A stretch of DNA of 64,000 bases. It comes from Tangfeifania diversioriginum. GTDB lineage: Bacteria; Bacteroidota; Bacteroidia; Bacteroidales; Prolixibacteraceae. Made by a program: the position numbers and the translations under genes. The DNA is taken from NCBI RefSeq assembly GCF_900141875.1, contig NZ_FQZE01000026.1:1-64000 (forward strand). The letters are read 5' to 3'. Below, piece after piece: positions 15,976-24,329 of this stretch (positions within the stretch are counted from its first letter, which is position 1; the number at the start of each line of letters is the position of its first letter). The notes beneath the pieces are model-generated. The model was not told where the DNA came from. It made no database searches and saw only the letters and a list, made by a program, of their open reading frames with translations.

Positions 15976-16587
15976 ATGACAGAAAAGAAATTAACAGGAG
16001 AACTCGATCGGTTTAGCTATGCGTTGGGTATGAGTGTGGCCTCAAATCTAATTCGATCGGGGGTAAAAAAAATCAATCCTGATTTATTCCTGCAGGCTAT
16101 AAACGATACATTTACAGGCGAAATGCCAAAAATGATGCCTGAAGAAGCAAACAAAATTTTAGAAGAATTTATGCAGAAAGCCAACCAGGGAGAGGCCAAA
16201 AATAACCTGGAAGAAGGGCTGAAATTTCTGGCTGAAAATAAGTCGGAAACTGGTGTTAACGAACTGCCCAGCGGATTGCAGTATAAAATTTTGGAAGAAG
16301 GAGATGGTGAATTACCTTCAACTGAAAGCGAGGTAAAATGCCATTACCACGGTACATTGATTGACGGCACTGTTTTCGACAGTTCTGTTGAACGCGGCGA
16401 ACCCGCTGTTTTTCCTGTAAATGCTGTTATTCCCGGTTGGGTAGAAGCATTGCAGATGATGCCGGAAGGCTCCAAATGGCGCCTTTTTGTACCTCCCGAG
16501 CTGGCTTACGGTGAGCAAGGTGCAGGCGGAGTAATTGGCCCCAACTCAACCTTGGTTTTCGATGTTGAATTATTAGAAATCGTTTAA
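15976..16587 (+). CDS. FKBP-type peptidyl-prolyl isomerase, cytoplasmic (FklB-like)
   Basis: 203 residues. N-terminal helical dimerisation domain (residues 8-75, 'DRFSYALGMSVASNLI') and C-terminal FKBP domain (about 95-203) with '[18 protein letters not shown]', 'VIPGWVEALQMMPEGSKW' and 'LAYGEQGAGGVIGPNSTL'. This is the FklB/FkpA layout. No signal peptide, so cytoplasmic. Catalyses cis-trans isomerisation of Xaa-Pro bonds and acts as a folding helper. The next gene is a lipoprotein paralogue starting 15 bp later; the FKBP domains are nearly the same at protein and DNA level, showing tandem duplication. Confidence 0.95.
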   Translation: MTEKKLTGELDRFSYALGMSVASNLIRSGVKKINPDLFLQAINDTFTGEMPKMMPEEANKILEEFMQKANQGEAKNNLEEGLKFLAENKSETGVNELPSGLQYKILEEGDGELPSTESEVKCHYHGTLIDGTVFDSSVERGEPAVFPVNAVIPGWVEALQMMPEGSKWRLFVPPELAYGEQGAGGVIGPNSTLVFDVELLEIV

Positions 16588-16602
16588 ATAGAATTTTTAG
16601 TT

Positions 16603-17373
16603 ATGAGGAACAGTATTATTTATTTATCAGCAGTTGTGTTGGTAATTGTTGGCATGAGTTGCCAGCAAAATGGCGGAGTTGGCGAAGTTAAACTTGAAAC
16701 ACAAGCCGACTCAGCAGGTTATGCAATTGGAATTTTGGTTGGAAATAACAATAAAGAACAAGTGGGGAACGCTCCCGGCGGCAGTGAGTTAAACATGGAC
16801 GCTATGGTTTCTGGTTTTGCACAGGCTGCGCTCGATCAGGAGTTGCAAATAACCCCCGAAGAAGCCGATAAGATTGTAAGAGATTTTTTTACAGCTGCCG
16901 GCGAAAGACAAGGACAGGCAAATCTTGAAGAAGGAAATGCTTTTCTCGAAGAAAATAAAGCCAGGGATGAAGTTAGTGTGACTGAAAGCGGATTGCAGTA
17001 CGAAGTAATCGAAGAAGGTGACGGACCAACACCTTCTGCTACCGACAGGGTGCGGGTACACTACCACGGTACACTTTTAGACGGTACAGTATTCGATAGT
17101 TCAGTTGAACGTGGCGAACCGGCAGTATTTGGTGTAAACCAGGTAATTCCAGGTTGGACAGAAGCACTGCAACTGATGCCGGTGGGCTCAAAATGGAAAA
17201 TTTATCTTCCTTCTGATTTAGCCTATGGCGAACGCGGAGCAGGTGCAGATATTGGCCCGAATTCAACCCTTATTTTTGAGGTTGAACTGCTCGAAATACT
17301 GGATGAAGAGCAAGTACAGCAACAACGCCAGCAGCAGCAAATTCAACAGCAGATGCAACAGCAAATGCGATAA
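16603..17373 (+). CDS. FKBP-type peptidyl-prolyl isomerase, lipoprotein (FkpA-like)
   Basis: 256 residues with a lipoprotein signal peptide ('VIVGMSC', Cys20). The mature part repeats the architecture of the upstream paralogue: helical N-domain (~35-115) and FKBP domain (~130-230) with '[18 protein letters not shown]' and '[18 protein letters not shown]'. A Gln-rich tail (about 235-255, '[17 protein letters not shown]') is unique to this copy. It would work in the periplasm or at the outer membrane on exported proteins. Same operon as the cytoplasmic FKBP, ended by the terminator at 17401. Confidence 0.94.
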
Positions 17374-18704: not shown

Positions 18705-18908
18705 AATATCTGGTGACAGGAATTTATACCACGATTATTAATTTTGTGATGAAAAAAAAATGGTGAATTAAAAAGGGAATCCGGTGCAAAACCGGAGCTG
18801 TACCCGCAGCTGTAATTTTTCAAAACTGGCAGCATTTTTTGCCACTGTCCCGATTTATCGGGACGGGAAGGCGCTGCCAATAGAAAATAAGCCAGAAGAC
18901 CTGCCATT
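18705..18908 (+). promoter_or_regulatory. Cobalamin (adenosylcobalamin) riboswitch
   Basis: The leader carries the conserved core of the cobalamin riboswitch: 'gggaatccggtgcaaaacc' at about 18775-18793, 'ggagctgtacccgcagctgt' at 18794-18813, 'gccactg' at 18841-18847, 'gggaaggcgctgcc' at 18865-18878 and 'aagccagaagacctgcc' at 18888-18904. These match the B12-box and P3-P6 regions. Boundaries are approximate, and the 5' P1 strand is put near 'ctggtgacagg' (18710-18720). It precedes a surface protein, a TonB-dependent receptor and a BtuG-like lipoprotein, so it should repress B12 uptake when cobalamin is plentiful. Confidence 0.95.
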
Positions 18909-18961
18909 TTTTATAATGCTTTCGGGAATAAAAGCGACGGTTTAAACACCTGAAGTTTTAT

Positions 18962-18989
18962 TTCCCCGTTTTACTAAAACAAAGGGGAA
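18962..18989 (+). promoter_or_regulatory. Hairpin covering the start region (riboswitch expression platform)
   Basis: ttcccc (18962-18967) pairs with ggggaa (18984-18989) and gttttt-like gtttt (18968-18972) with aaaac (18976-18980), around a 3-base loop and a 3-A bulge. The 3' arm includes the purine-rich gggga and the A of the ATG at 18989. This looks like a translation-blocking hairpin controlled by the riboswitch. No T tract follows, so termination is unlikely. Confidence 0.6.
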
Positions 18990-21328
18990 TGAATAAATTA
19001 CTACTACTTTTCGTATGGGGGGCTTTCCCTTTTTGGGGGCTCTCACAAACCAACGGTTTTGAAGTCTGGGATTACAAACCGGCTCCCGGCCAGCACATTA
19101 ATATCAGTTCGCTGGGAACACCAGCCGCTGCTGAGCAAATGGCTGCCAACCCCGACAAACTTGTTTCTCTCGGTAGTTTTGGAGGTTACGTAATACTTAA
19201 ATTCAACGAGGCCTGCCTGAATGATCAGGAAAATCCGTATGGAGTTGATTTTACTGTGTTCGGGAATGCCTTTTCCGGTTCTTCTGAACCCGGAGTGGTT
19301 TGGGTAATGCAGGATGAAAACAGCAATGGAAAACCTGACGACACCTGGTTTGAAATTGCCGGTAGCCAGCATTTTTATTCCCAATCCATTCAAAATTCAT
19401 CGGTTACCTATTTTAAAACTGAAACGAGAGATGTTTTCTGGAAAAATAATTCAGGTGAGAGCGGATGGATTTTTGCAAACAATTTTAACCTTCAGGAATA
19501 TTATCCGGCAAATGATTTTTTCCCCGGCTACCCTCCGGATTCGGTGACTTTTGAAGGAACAATGTTGTATCCGTTTATCGACAGTTTGCAGCAGGTAATT
19601 AAAACGGAAGCATTGGCTTTCGGTTATGCTGATAACCGTCCACGGGTAAAAGGAATCGATATGACAGTGCCCGATAATCCGTACACAACTGAAATTGAAG
19701 GCGCTGGAGGTGATCCTATTGACATTTCATGGGCCGTTGAGGAAAATGGAAATTACGTGCATCTCGATTCAATTCATTTTGTAAAGATTGTTACAGGAAC
19801 TTTGGCTAATACCAGCCATTTGGGCGAAATTTCCACCGATGTTTCATGGTTTGCCGATGTGGCACCAGCTCCGGAAATTAGTGGGAAGGAGAACATGTTG
19901 GTTGTTTTCCCAACCTCCAAGAAACTGGTTGCTGGTGATTCATCATTGCTTGAAGCAGTTTATTTTGAGCAGGGCAGAAAAAAAAGAACTGACATTTCCT
20001 TTTCCTCACAGGATGAGTTGGTAGCAACGGTAGATAATTCGGGAAAATTAACGGCACAAAGTACAGGCGAAACTCAAATTTCCATTTCTGCAAAAGCTGA
20101 AGTTCAGCAAATTAATATTATGGTGGTTGAGCCTGATTCCATTCAAATTCTTACTGATTTTTCAGCTCTTTATCCGGGTGATTCGGTTCGGCTGGAAGCC
20201 ACTGTTTACGACAATGAAAATGAAAAATTAAATATCCCGGTGCATTTTTCTTCGTCCCGTCCTGGTTTGGGACAAGTCGTTCAACAAAATGGAAGTTACT
20301 GGCTCAAAGCCATTCAACCCGGAATATTGAATGTGGTATGCAACGTGGAAGGATTCGATTTGCAGGCAGAGAAAAATGTGGAAGTGCTTTCAGAAAATGA
20401 AAAGATTAAACTGTATTTCAGCCTGAAAAATGAAGATGAAAATTTGTTCCCCTTTCAATGGATTGAGGTTGGGGAGGTTGATTTAATGCAAGTTGTTGAA
20501 AACCCGCAGCTCAATTATTCAGGTCTTAACAGGTTGACCCTGGCCCACGCAATGGTGGCCGGTTTATCAAAAGTGGAAGTTGATTTTAAGTTCAGAGACG
20601 ACGAAGCCTCCGGGGGAAAGCTGTATTTGTATTCAGTGGAAACCGAGGGGATTTATTCGTATGGCTGGGGAGGAAAAACAGAGCCCGAAAGTTTTGCCAG
20701 GGGATGGATTGCCCGCCTCAACGGGAACCCGTTTTTGAACAGTTTCAATGAAATTGAAATTTCGGATGGCGATACGCTCGATTTGTACCATGTGTCAACT
20801 ATTACACAACCCTGGAACTATTCCAGGTTGCTTACAAATAAAGATTCCGCAAAAAGGAACGAAGAAGTTGAAATCCTGCTCGAACAAACCACCTGTAATT
20901 TTTTTGACGGAGAAATCACTGAATCCGGCTTTGCTCCTTTAAAAAATGTGCAGGTTTCTGCAGATGACATCTATTTTACCGACGAAAGCGGAAAGGTTGT
21001 TTTTATCATTGACACTGAGCCACCGATAACTGTTTCATCGGGCAATAACGCAGTATTTATTGCAAAAAAAACAATCACGGGAATTCATGAAATTTCTCAA
21101 TTAATTCAGGTTTATCCCAACCCGGTTGAAAATGAACTCACAATTGGAGGAACTGTAATTTCCAAATCTAAAATTGTGCTGTTTTCGTCAACTGGCCAGT
21201 TACTCTTCAATAAAGAAATTTTTACGTTCCCGGCAAAAGTAGATTTCTCTTCATTTCAACCCGGAATTTATTACCTGGTTGTCACCCACCGGCAAGGAAC
21301 AGAAACCTGTAAAATCATAAAAAAATGA
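18989..21328 (+). CDS. T9SS-exported surface protein of the B12 locus, with Ig-like and transcobalamin-like (DUF4430-like) segments
   Basis: 779 residues with a signal peptide (1-20, ending 'GLSQ'). Domain order: an N-terminal domain found in Bacteroidota 'cell surface proteins' (~21-295, with 'GFGGYVILKFNEA'-like beta segments and 'DENSNGKPDDTWFEIAGS'); two BIG2/Ig-like modules (~300-470); a segment (~475-605) with 'GWIARLNGNPF' and 'EIEISDGDTLDLYHV', which recalls the DUF4430 transcobalamin C-terminal fold; a short beta module (~640-690); and a type A T9SS sorting domain ('VYPNPVENELTIGG' from ~708 to the end). First gene under the cobalamin riboswitch, overlapping the receptor gene by 4 bases. 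A role in B12 capture at the cell surface is inferred from context. Confidence 0.88.
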   Translation: MNKLLLLFVWGAFPFWGLSQTNGFEVWDYKPAPGQHINISSLGTPAAAEQMAANPDKLVSLGSFGGYVILKFNEACLNDQENPYGVDFTVFGNAFSGSSEPGVVWVMQDENSNGKPDDTWFEIAGSQHFYSQSIQNSSVTYFKTETRDVFWKNNSGESGWIFANNFNLQEYYPANDFFPGYPPDSVTFEGTMLYPFIDSLQQVIKTEALAFGYADNRPRVKGIDMTVPDNPYTTEIEGAGGDPIDISWAVEENGNYVHLDSIHFVKIVTGTLANTSHLGEISTDVSWFADVAPAPEISGKENMLVVFPTSKKLVAGDSSLLEAVYFEQGRKKRTDISFSSQDELVATVDNSGKLTAQSTGETQISISAKAEVQQINIMVVEPDSIQILTDFSALYPGDSVRLEATVYDNENEKLNIPVHFSSSRPGLGQVVQQNGSYWLKAIQPGILNVVCNVEGFDLQAEKNVEVLSENEKIKLYFSLKNEDENLFPFQWIEVGEVDLMQVVENPQLNYSGLNRLTLAHAMVAGLSKVEVDFKFRDDEASGGKLYLYSVETEGIYSYGWGGKTEPESFARGWIARLNGNPFLNSFNEIEISDGDTLDLYHVSTITQPWNYSRLLTNKDSAKRNEEVEILLEQTTCNFFDGEITESGFAPLKNVQVSADDIYFTDESGKVVFIIDTEPPITVSSGNNAVFIAKKTITGIHEISQLIQVYPNPVENELTIGGTVISKSKIVLFSSTGQLLFNKEIFTFPAKVDFSSFQPGIYYLVVTHRQGTETCKIIKK

Positions 21329-23286
21329 ACCCACTAAAAAGTTTTTTGCTGGTGTTGTTTCTGTTGTCTTTTCATTTAATGCAAGCGCAAAACCTTTCTG
21401 ATACTGTTCATATTGAAGAAGTACAAGTGCTCGCCAAAAAGAAAATTGAAGAGGCCGGGTTGAAAATTACCCGCCCCGATTCTTTAGCCATGGCGTCATC
21501 AGTAACCGCAGATCTTTCTGAACTGATTTCAGGTTTTTCGCCCGTTTTTATAAAATCGTACGGACAGGGTTCTTCGGCAACAGCCAGTTTCAGGGGAACT
21601 GCGGCCACGCACACACAAATATTGTGGAATGGCATGAATTTAAATTCCCCGATGCGCGGGCTGGCCGACTTATCGTTATTGCCGGTATTTTTTACCGATA
21701 ATTTGTACTTGCTTCATGGCGGAAGTTCGCTCTCAGAGGGTAGCGGCGGGCTGGGAGGGAGCATTCACCTCGAAAATAATCCCGACTGGTCAACGCGATT
21801 TAGCGTGTCGGGTTTAGCAGAACTGGCTTCTTTTCAAACCCGGAAAACTTTTTTTAAGTTGATGGCGGGCACAGAAAATTTTAAATCGAACACCCGGCTT
21901 TTTTACGAAGCATCGGAAAATGATTTTTCTTTTTTCAATTCGGGGGTAATTCCGCATCGAAAAGATACGCTTGAAAATGCAGATTTCCGGAAGACCGGAG
22001 TTTTGCAGGAATTTTATTTGCGTAGTAATGAGAACGAAATTTTTTCATTGCGTTTTTGGTATCAGGAAAGCCACCGGAATTTGCCGCAACTGATGTCATA
22101 CGAAGGAAGCACCCGCGATGAATTTCAAAACGACCAGCAGCTGCGGGCGCAGCTGGAATGGAAAAAATACAGTGATGGTTGGAATACGCGCATTTTTAGC
22201 GGAGTGAGTTCAAATCGTCTTGAATATTTCCGTGCCACGCCACAGTTTAATTTTGTGAATGAAAATTCGGAAAGCAGGGAAACCAGTTTTCTGAACCACT
22301 TTCGCTTTTTCAAAAGAATGAATGAAGTTGTATTTGCCACCCTGAGTTTTGATGCCAATCTGCACCGGGTGAAAACCAGCAATTTGCTTGATGAAAGCGG
22401 GTACCTGAAAAACCGGTTTGAAACTAGTCTGCTCATGAAGGCCAACTTTAAATCATCCGACAGTTTTGCTGCCTTTCTGTTGCTTCGCTCCGAGTCGTTC
22501 GATAAAAGCATTGTCCCGTTCATTCCGGCTGCCGGATTGGAGTGGCAGCCATTCGCCCGTTTCCCGGTTGTTCTGCTATCGAATATTGCCCGAAATTACC
22601 ACAAACCCACCCTGAATGATTTGTACTGGATTCCGGGGGGAAACCCAGATTTGCAACCGGAAGACGGTTTTACGGGCGATGTTTCTTTGTCGGGCGACTT
22701 TCAGTTGGGCAAAATGACATTTAAAAATGAAGTTACCGGATTTGCGTCGAAAATTGAAAACTGGATTTCATGGCAGCCTGCTTCCAGCGGTGCCTGGTAC
22801 TGGGAAGCGCAAAATGTGAAAAACGTTTTTTCGCGCGGAATTGAATATTCTTTTTCTGCTGAATACGACTGGAAAAGTTTCCGGTTCCGGACCAGTGGCA
22901 ATTATTCTTTTACCCGGACATCAAACCTCGATGCTGTGAGTTCAGTCGATCAGTCGCGTGGTAAACAGTTGATTTACATTCCCAAACACAAAGGGAATTT
23001 CCATTTCAACACCTCCTGGAAAAAGTTTGCGATTAACTATTCTTTAAATTATGTGGGCAAACGGTTTACCAAATCAAGTAACCAGGAATCGGAATTCGAA
23101 CGTGTTTTAAATCCGTACTGGCTGAATAAAATTGCCATTGGCAGAAAATCCGACTTTGGTAACTATGCTGTGAATTTGAAATTTACGGTTGAAAATTTAC
23201 TTGACGAAAATTACCAGAGTATTTTATGGCGCCCCATGCCCGGGCGTTTTTACCGTTTTTCGGTAGCAATAAATTACAAAAACTGA
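21325..23286 (+). CDS. btuB: TonB-dependent outer-membrane receptor, probable cobalamin transporter (BtuB-like)
   Basis: 653 residues. Signal peptide to about residue 22 ('FHLMQAQ'), a short acidic TonB-box-like 'DTVHIEEVQVLAKK' (~26-39), plug domain (~50-150: 'SYGQGSSATASFRGTAATH', 'LLHGGSSLSEGSGGLGGSI') and a 22-strand barrel ending in 'FYRFSVAINYKN' with the expected aromatic C-terminal strand. No CarboxypepD_reg extension, unlike SusC. Position between the riboswitch-led surface protein and a BtuG-like lipoprotein supports B12 as substrate. ATGA overlap with the upstream gene implies translational coupling. Confidence 0.92.
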   Translation: MNPLKSFLLVLFLLSFHLMQAQNLSDTVHIEEVQVLAKKKIEEAGLKITRPDSLAMASSVTADLSELISGFSPVFIKSYGQGSSATASFRGTAATHTQILWNGMNLNSPMRGLADLSLLPVFFTDNLYLLHGGSSLSEGSGGLGGSIHLENNPDWSTRFSVSGLAELASFQTRKTFFKLMAGTENFKSNTRLFYEASENDFSFFNSGVIPHRKDTLENADFRKTGVLQEFYLRSNENEIFSLRFWYQESHRNLPQLMSYEGSTRDEFQNDQQLRAQLEWKKYSDGWNTRIFSGVSSNRLEYFRATPQFNFVNENSESRETSFLNHFRFFKRMNEVVFATLSFDANLHRVKTSNLLDESGYLKNRFETSLLMKANFKSSDSFAAFLLLRSESFDKSIVPFIPAAGLEWQPFARFPVVLLSNIARNYHKPTLNDLYWIPGGNPDLQPEDGFTGDVSLSGDFQLGKMTFKNEVTGFASKIENWISWQPASSGAWYWEAQNVKNVFSRGIEYSFSAEYDWKSFRFRTSGNYSFTRTSNLDAVSSVDQSRGKQLIYIPKHKGNFHFNTSWKKFAINYSLNYVGKRFTKSSNQESEFERVLNPYWLNKIAIGRKSDFGNYAVNLKFTVENLLDENYQSILWRPMPGRFYRFSVAINYKN

Positions 23287-23288
23287 CC

Positions 23289-24329
23289 ATGAAGAAATTA
23301 TTCAAAATAACATTTTTGGTTTTGCTAATTGCAGGGTGTTCGGAAGAACCTGTAGAAACAGTATTTTTTGACCTGGATACAAATAATGGTGTTTTTATTG
23401 CGAGCGAAGGAAATTTCATGTACGGAAATGCTGCGCTTTCATTTTATAACACCCAAAAGAAAACCGTTACCAATCAGCTTTTTTATGCCCGGAACAATGC
23501 TCCGCTGGGCGATGTGGTGCAATCGCTCGCGCAATTTGGTGATTCATTATTTATTGTGGTAAACAACTCGGGGAAAATTTATGTGGCAGACTCTGAAACT
23601 GTTGAGTACAAGGGTACCATTACCGGTTTAACTTCGCCGCGTCACATTCATTTCGTTTCGGAAGAAAAGGCCTATATTTCTGATCTTTACGCCAGCTCAA
23701 TAACAATTTTTAATCCTGCCACACTTGATGTTACCGGTAAAATTGAGATCGGCAATCATCATTCGGAACAGATGGTCCAGGTGGGTAAATATGTGTTTGT
23801 TTCTTCCTGGGCAAACGATGAGTATATTTTGATTATCGATACTGAAAACGATGAATTAACCCAGAAAATTAAAGTGCCATTTCAGCCCAAAGATTTGGCA
23901 GTGGACAAAAATGAAAAGGTTTGGGTACTTTCGGAAGGGACTTACGAAAATACAAGCGAAAAAGAACTTTTGCCGGCGTTAACCCGCATCGATCCGGAAA
24001 CCTTTACGGTTGAACAGATTTACCGGTTCCCGGCACAATCTCAGCCGGCATCACTTGAAATGAATGCTTCAAAAGATACTCTTTATTATATTTTGAGTGG
24101 TATTAACAAAATGGCTGTTGACCAAAGGTATTTGCCCGATTCCGTTTTTATACCGGCTGGGAGCAGATTGTTTTATAACCTGGCCGTTGATCCTTCTGCT
24201 AATGAAATTTATGTAGCCGATGCCATCGATTATGCGCAGGATGCCATTATTTACCGATATTCGCAATCGGGAGAATTGAAAGATTCATTTAAGGTGGGGA
24301 TTAATCCTTCCTATTTTTTATTCAAGTGA
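23289..24329 (+). CDS. btuG: Surface beta-propeller lipoprotein, BtuG-like cobalamin-binding protein
   Basis: 346 residues. Lipobox 'LIAGC' at Cys17, then repeated WD/YVTN-like blades ('VFIASEGNFMYGNAALSFYN', 'KIYVADSETVEYKGTITGL', 'AYISDLYASSITIFNPATL', 'IYVADAIDYAQDAII'), fitting a seven-bladed YncE/DUF5074 propeller. BtuG proteins of Bacteroides are lipoproteins of this fold that bind B12 tightly and cap BtuB. Adjacent to the receptor (2-bp gap) under a cobalamin riboswitch, so the assignment is strong by context. Start 23289 is set by the signal peptide; a longer frame from 23226 lies inside btuB. No btuCDF genes follow. Confidence 0.85.
   Translation: MKKLFKITFLVLLIAGCSEEPVETVFFDLDTNNGVFIASEGNFMYGNAALSFYNTQKKTVTNQLFYARNNAPLGDVVQSLAQFGDSLFIVVNNSGKIYVADSETVEYKGTITGLTSPRHIHFVSEEKAYISDLYASSITIFNPATLDVTGKIEIGNHHSEQMVQVGKYVFVSSWANDEYILIIDTENDELTQKIKVPFQPKDLAVDKNEKVWVLSEGTYENTSEKELLPALTRIDPETFTVEQIYRFPAQSQPASLEMNASKDTLYYILSGINKMAVDQRYLPDSVFIPAGSRLFYNLAVDPSANEIYVADAIDYAQDAIIYRYSQSGELKDSFKVGINPSYFLFK

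Follow-up and report, generated by a model that had tools for sequence, protein, structure and literature searches.

A BtuH-type protein with a type IX sorting tail ahead of BtuB and BtuG in Tangfeifania diversioriginum

The locus described here spans positions 18705–24329 of a 64,000-nucleotide stretch of Tangfeifania diversioriginum DNA (assembly GCF_900141875.1, contig NZ_FQZE01000026.1, positions 1–64,000; hereafter the window). It features a cobalamin riboswitch followed by three plus-strand genes: gene 1, encoding a BtuH-type protein with a type IX secretion system (T9SS) sorting tail; gene 2, encoding a BtuB-type receptor; and gene 3, encoding a BtuG-type lipoprotein. This trio is very probably the only outer-membrane B12 uptake operon of the organism, with the gene 1 product capturing cobamide for BtuG and BtuB. 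As judged by homology, gene 1 is a variant of BtuH and not a wholly new kind of component. The evidence is about evenly balanced on a wider proposal: that a single T9SS-exported protein carries two unrelated folds, BtuH and a transcobalamin-β-like domain, both of which bind cobamide—either as a two-site catcher or by closing over one molecule like the two domains of animal transcobalamin—and that BtuH and BtuJ proteins outside the gut Bacteroides would then generally use T9SS display in place of a lipoprotein anchor.

The riboswitch-led gene trio and its conservation

The riboswitch aptamer (18744–18922, + strand) matches RF00174 over its full length (model 1–189) with a cmscan score of 112.2 bits against a gathering score of 31.5 (E 2.7e-27) and is one of only two cobalamin riboswitches in the genome; all whole-genome checks reported here are single-family searches. 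According to the open reading frame listing, the genes occupy 18989–21328, 21325–23286, and 23289–24329, with an overlap of 4 bp between the first two and a gap of 2 bp between the last two. The gene beyond 24329 lies on the opposite strand, and the unit hence consists of three genes. An earlier note on this DNA had described a riboswitch core, a 779-residue protein with a type IX tail, a TonB receptor overlapping it by 4 bp, and a lipobox β-propeller after a 2-bp gap, a layout that the profile scores, homologies, and coordinates given here bear out. The BtuB-type TonB-dependent receptor (gene 2, 21325–23286, + strand) is homologous to 8bmx_C (E 1e-96) and 8p98_A (E 5e-86); with TIGR01779, the proteobacterial BtuB equivalog, it scores 79.8 bits, below the cut-off of 599.7. 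The BtuG-type β-propeller surface lipoprotein (gene 3, DUF5074, 23289–24329, + strand) is homologous to 8p97_B (E 2e-82) and 8bmx_D (E 2e-81), matches PF16819 with 99 bits, and features the lipobox LIAGC-SEE. The lipobox is found with the ATG start at 23289; a longer start at 23226 is not needed. No second clear copy of BtuB or of BtuG was found in the genome. Genes 2 and 3 correspond to the receptor and propeller lid of the Bacteroides BtuBG complexes (8bmx, 8p97/8p98, 8okv); unlike in these systems, the order is H–B–G with the tight spacing given above, and the genome's sole full-length FecCD-type permease operon is located away from the trio.

Twenty other same-family genomes, from eight genera, encode full-length homologues of gene 1 (34–56% identity). 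All 20 homologues lie directly behind a cobalamin riboswitch, and the arrangement BtuH–BtuB–BtuG is intact in 19, the remaining contig ending inside BtuB; the three-gene set that the earlier note proposed to seek in related genomes thus recurs. The extreme scores for the riboswitch and the three gene identities, together with this conserved arrangement, argue that the locus is not a product of chance. A wider GTDB scan covers 80 loci, mostly from Prolixibacteraceae and other Bacteroidales-type records with a few labelled Chlorobiota or Cytophagales, and shares some genomes with the same-family set. The BtuH protein carries a T9SS tail in 78 of the 80, a share that is biased upwards because the loci are the best matches to the query. 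BtuB lies directly downstream of BtuH in 72 loci and both BtuB and BtuG follow in 61; a T9SS-tailed DUF4465 neighbor is present in 34 and a transcobalamin-like domain in 33.

Several loci depart from this layout. Four (L127:493-3210, L133:6519-9350, L140:1-2604, and L143:6927-9341) encode T9SS-tailed DUF4465–BtuH fusions immediately before BtuB, which by homology unite two known folds for B12 binding in a single polypeptide. T9SS-tailed proteins of 1358–1866 aa with a BtuH domain are encoded at L062:5104-10704, L103:2723-7837, and L155:3793-7869; those of L103 and L155 lie directly upstream of a second BtuH gene.

Domains and export of the gene 1 product

Gene 1 (18989–21328, + strand) encodes a 779-aa T9SS-exported BtuH-type protein, as assigned from its open reading frame, TIGR04183, and PDB sequence homology. 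The N-terminus MNKLLLLFVWGAFPFWGLSQ fits a Sec signal peptide of approximately residues 1–20, as judged by eye. The BtuH (B12-binding) domain comprises residues 25–292 (19061–19864, + strand; phmmer, Foldseek, and residue mapping) and matches 7biz_A with E 1e-39 and 8blw_B with E 1e-31 in phmmer; with the model of the full protein as query, 8blw_B and 7biz occupy Foldseek ranks 1–3. This membership in a described B12-binding family (PMC8941943) had been overlooked in the earlier note. For residue mapping, the numbering of the 7biz chain differs from that of the protein by one constant offset of 100, with which each of the eight published contact residues for B12 is recovered (PMC8941943). Gln333 and Asn399 of BtuH2, which contact the ribose and phosphate of B12 (PMC8941943), correspond to Q35 and N93 and are invariant in 21 of 21 homologues; Phe401 is kept as well, and Leu578 is kept as L278. 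The domain is intact, with 42–67% identity across 25 homologues, and homology and conservation together suggest that the gene 1 product binds B12.

The closest characterized relative is BtuH2 of B. thetaiotaomicron (7biz; PMC8941943), which shares the globular B12-binding domain (identical at 113 of 252 aligned positions), Ig-like partner domains, and a gene position within a riboswitch-controlled btuB/btuG locus. BtuH2, however, is a lipoprotein with PKD domains followed by a C-terminal BtuH domain, whereas gene 1 has its BtuH domain at the N-terminal end, a C-terminal T9SS tail as export tag, and an additional transcobalamin-like domain. Another homologous domain adjoining BtuB/BtuG is the H-domain of BtuG1 (8blw; PMC10404256), but there it forms part of the BtuG propeller lipoprotein and is not a separate T9SS-exported protein as in gene 1. 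The BtuH domain of gene 1 is followed by a Big_2 Ig-like spacer domain (residues 317–372; 19937–20104, + strand; PF02368 with 26.1 bits, cut-off 22.8).

The domain of residues 471–640 (170 aa; 20399–20908, + strand), which the earlier note also had not picked up, is conserved among gene 1 homologues and is modeled by AF2 with a pLDDT of 91.8. The 18 top Foldseek matches in the PDB, with probabilities of 0.98–1.00, are transcobalamin, haptocorrin, intrinsic factor, and one DUF4430 protein (two chains); one further intrinsic-factor entry follows at 0.91, and other folds stay below 0.2. The R. gnavus entry 3u7z is taken here to be a DUF4430 protein. The match to 5np4 has a probability of 1.00 and a TMt of 0.60, and query-normalized TM-scores amount to 0.40–0.47. 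The model features a β-grasp fold in which a hairpin is inserted behind the helix, as in the transcobalamin-like clade when compared by strand order (PMC1796856). This insert defines the clade, whose bacterial members were predicted in 2007 to bind B12 or similar ligands (PMC1796856), and the β domain of human transcobalamin alone binds cyanocobalamin (CNCbl) in crystals (PMC5599065). The β-grasp with post-helix hairpin is thus common to gene 1, the β domain of transcobalamin and intrinsic factor, the SLBB transcobalamin-like clade, and DUF4430 (5np4; PMC1796856, PMC5599065). In contrast to transcobalamin and intrinsic factor, with which sequence similarity is low (11–20% in the Foldseek rows), gene 1 has no α-barrel partner domain and carries the fused BtuH domain instead.

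At the level of sequence, Pfam on residues 471–640 alone gave no PF14478 (DUF4430) match and nothing useful, and a PDB sequence search with the family profile of these residues gave chance hits only; DUF4430 is matched by six of 22 homologues with a best E of 1e-3. Among 395 genomes of the class, the transcobalamin-like family has a match in the T. diversioriginum genome only, which marks it as clade-restricted and not a general Bacteroidota trait. Same-family genomes without this version of BtuH have small secreted DUF4430 proteins within B12 loci: nine of 11 fetched DUF4430 neighborhoods contain a cobalamin riboswitch and, by inspection, these neighborhoods contain BtuB- or BtuG-like and CobU/CobT/CobS/CobQ-like genes. 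The DUF4430 proteins of L175–L183 have approximately 130–150 aa, the motif THPV..YVFV, and a DVCS end; they probably serve as soluble B12 binders in relatives that lack the long protein. In G119, a BtuB–BtuG–BtuH set is followed by a T9SS-tailed DUF4430 protein of 773 aa (L074 10357-12678), apparently an independent case of a transcobalamin-like domain combined with T9SS export.

The C-terminus (residues 708–779; 21110–21325, + strand) is a T9SS type A sorting domain with a TIGR04183 score of 45.5 bits (cut-off 23) and also matches PF18962. The genome encodes the translocon protein SprA (E 1e-186) and a full-length PorU sortase (1282 bits against a cut-off of 420). The gene 1 product is without a lipobox, and the lipoprotein export of Bacteroides BtuH, a typical though not a defining trait, does not apply to it. 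Homology and conservation point to export via T9SS, and the third, T9SS-exported B12 surface component envisaged in the earlier note gains strong support from the BtuH homology, the conserved linkage, and the presence of SprA and PorU. A T9SS tail accompanies 91 of 102 distinct BtuH domains, and the other 11 belong to lipoproteins, with visual assignment of two of these 11 lipoboxes and of one masked tail; the BtuH-domain tree requires at least four changes of anchor type.

Leader, second riboswitch locus, and B12 physiology

The leader contains a P13-like hairpin GCUUUCGGGAAUAAAAGC (18918–18935, + strand), the loop CGGG of which is complementary to the aptamer loop L5, CCCG. The hairpin is present in 13 of 13 near-clade leaders, and L5 reads CCCG in 12. 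The switch strand UUUUAUUUCCCC (18956–18967, + strand), with a core invariant in the 13 leaders, has two possible partners according to folding: GGGAAUAAAA upstream or GGGGAAUG downstream. Upstream pairing frees the start codon of gene 1 and downstream pairing hides it, the latter being the more stable form in 12 of the 13 leaders; the start region GGGGAAUGAAU (18984–18994, + strand) is sequestered in the proposed OFF hairpin, as judged by folding and the 13 leaders. The elements GCUUUCGGGAAUAA[A/G]AGC, UUAUUUCCC, and GGGAAUGA—the last containing the start codon—are invariant or almost so. With B12 bound, a kissing loop between L5 and L13 would free UUUUAUUUCCCC to pair with GGGGAAUG and the start codon would be hidden; when B12 is scarce, the riboswitch would leave the start codon open, this being the expected direction of the switch. 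The same leader pairs are invariant across the near clade and are too conserved for covariation to serve as a test, which counts against the model. A transcriptional terminator as riboswitch output was considered and rejected, folding favoring the hairpin over the start codon instead; consensus scans for promoters and terminators gave no more matches than in shuffles.

The other cobalamin riboswitch of the genome (contig C26; L033:11944-13227, equivalent to G000 C26:47943-49226), likewise overlooked in the earlier note, leads a DUF4465 (BtuJ-type) gene. Its product (334 aa; L033 12223-13227) carries a T9SS sorting tail and matches 9hmu with E 6.5e-27, and in several relatives a DUF4465 gene sits after BtuG in the main locus. 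DUF4465 proteins bind B12 (PMC12751083, PMC13398666), and both cobalamin riboswitches of the genome hence lead T9SS-tailed homologues of known B12 binders. Whereas the characterized BtuJ proteins (9fct, 9qpm, 9hmu; PMC12751083, PMC13398666) are lipoproteins, the second-locus homologue and the DUF4465 neighbors in the GTDB loci counted above are T9SS-tailed.

B12-binding domains occur in one frame of 1245 aa and in frames of 719 and 658 aa, lengths that fit MetH and MutAB, respectively. CobS was not found in the genome. A single full-length FecCD permease operon (L077:2413-5587, G000 contig C32) encodes a BtuF-like lipoprotein, a permease, and an ATPase; it is likely the inner-membrane B12 importer, although its substrate assignment is putative and its contig C32 has no cobalamin riboswitch. 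Because proteins with B12-binding domains are present, CobS is absent, and one FecCD permease operon exists, the organism probably has to import its cobamide. Not far upstream of the B12 locus (window 15976–17373), inspection of translations identifies a tandem pair of FKBP-type peptidyl-prolyl isomerase genes, of which the second has a lipobox-like start.

Alternative readings and significance

According to the proposed mechanism, T9SS would carry the gene 1 product, a cobamide-capture protein of the BtuH type, across the outer membrane, to be displayed at the cell surface or released from it. The protein would bind B12 via its BtuH domain and probably also via the transcobalamin-β-like domain, held on Ig-like spacers, and would then deliver the B12 to BtuG, the lipoprotein lid, and to BtuB, the TonB-driven channel. 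Several observations weigh against parts of this mechanism. Where BtuH2 has His476, gene 1 has N167 (H in 14 of 21 homologues); Trp577 is replaced by H277 (W in 13 of 21), and the Tyr510/Trp511 loop shows no conservation. The residue mapping therefore indicates that the site has retained its nucleotide-loop half while the corrin half has drifted. These changed corrin-ring contacts would suit a protein serving another corrinoid—such as cobinamide or another cobamide—or one whose function has decayed. Such a role is improbable, however, as the contacts to the nucleotide loop, common to complete cobamides, are the invariant ones, the domain is intact at the identities given above, and the locus is predicted to be B12-regulated. 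For the second domain, hhalign against same-family DUF4430 proteins yields a probability of 2% and an E of 0.024, aligned on a W...N...GD motif. This weak profile similarity means that sequence alone is no proof of kinship, and the probable transcobalamin-like assignment stems from the modeled fold. The BtuH domain might accordingly be the sole B12 binder, with the transcobalamin-like domain acting as a spacer or binding another partner such as BtuG. We lean against this alternative while taking it seriously: the marginal similarity to DUF4430, the modest query-normalized TM-scores, and the many T9SS-tailed BtuH proteins without the domain speak for it, whereas the top Foldseek matches are confined to animal B12 carriers and a DUF4430 protein, the clade-defining hairpin is present in the model (PMC1796856), and stand-alone DUF4430 proteins of same-family relatives lie in riboswitch-led B12 operons.

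Type A T9SS tails occur on released as well as on anchored proteins, and the sequence of the gene 1 product fits either fate. Instead of staying on the producing cell, the protein might be released to the medium or on vesicles as a soluble B12 scavenger—a "cobalophore"—from which BtuG later strips B12. BtuH2 of B. thetaiotaomicron was detected both with the membranes and in the supernatant (PMC8941943), and BtuJ carried on vesicles is able to deliver B12 (PMC12751083). The genome, however, encodes a full-length PorU sortase capable of anchoring cargo, and a released high-affinity binder helps competitors unless returned; release in place of surface retention appears unlikely.

Among the open-licence papers searched, none linked T9SS cargo to BtuG or to a cobalamin riboswitch, and no prior report of T9SS-displayed BtuH or BtuJ or of a transcobalamin-like module was found. 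As predicted from sorting tails, T9SS display of BtuH and BtuJ proteins is new as a widespread alternative to lipid anchoring; the probable transcobalamin-like second module of a BtuH protein, which derives from a structural model, is new as well. Accessory surface capture of B12 is known from gut Bacteroides and is described there as lipoprotein-based. The tails place the same binding domains under T9SS display in many Bacteroidota lineages, with repeated changes of anchor type—suggesting that BtuH can function without a lipid anchor and without any lipid-anchored complex with BtuBG. A dispensable lipid anchor is relevant to how B12 passes from BtuH to BtuG when the two form no stable complex. 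Proteins of the DUF4465 and BtuH types that have been taken for "periplasmic" may instead be T9SS cargo. If its assignment is true, the transcobalamin-like domain would connect the fold of animal B12 carriers to bacterial uptake loci.

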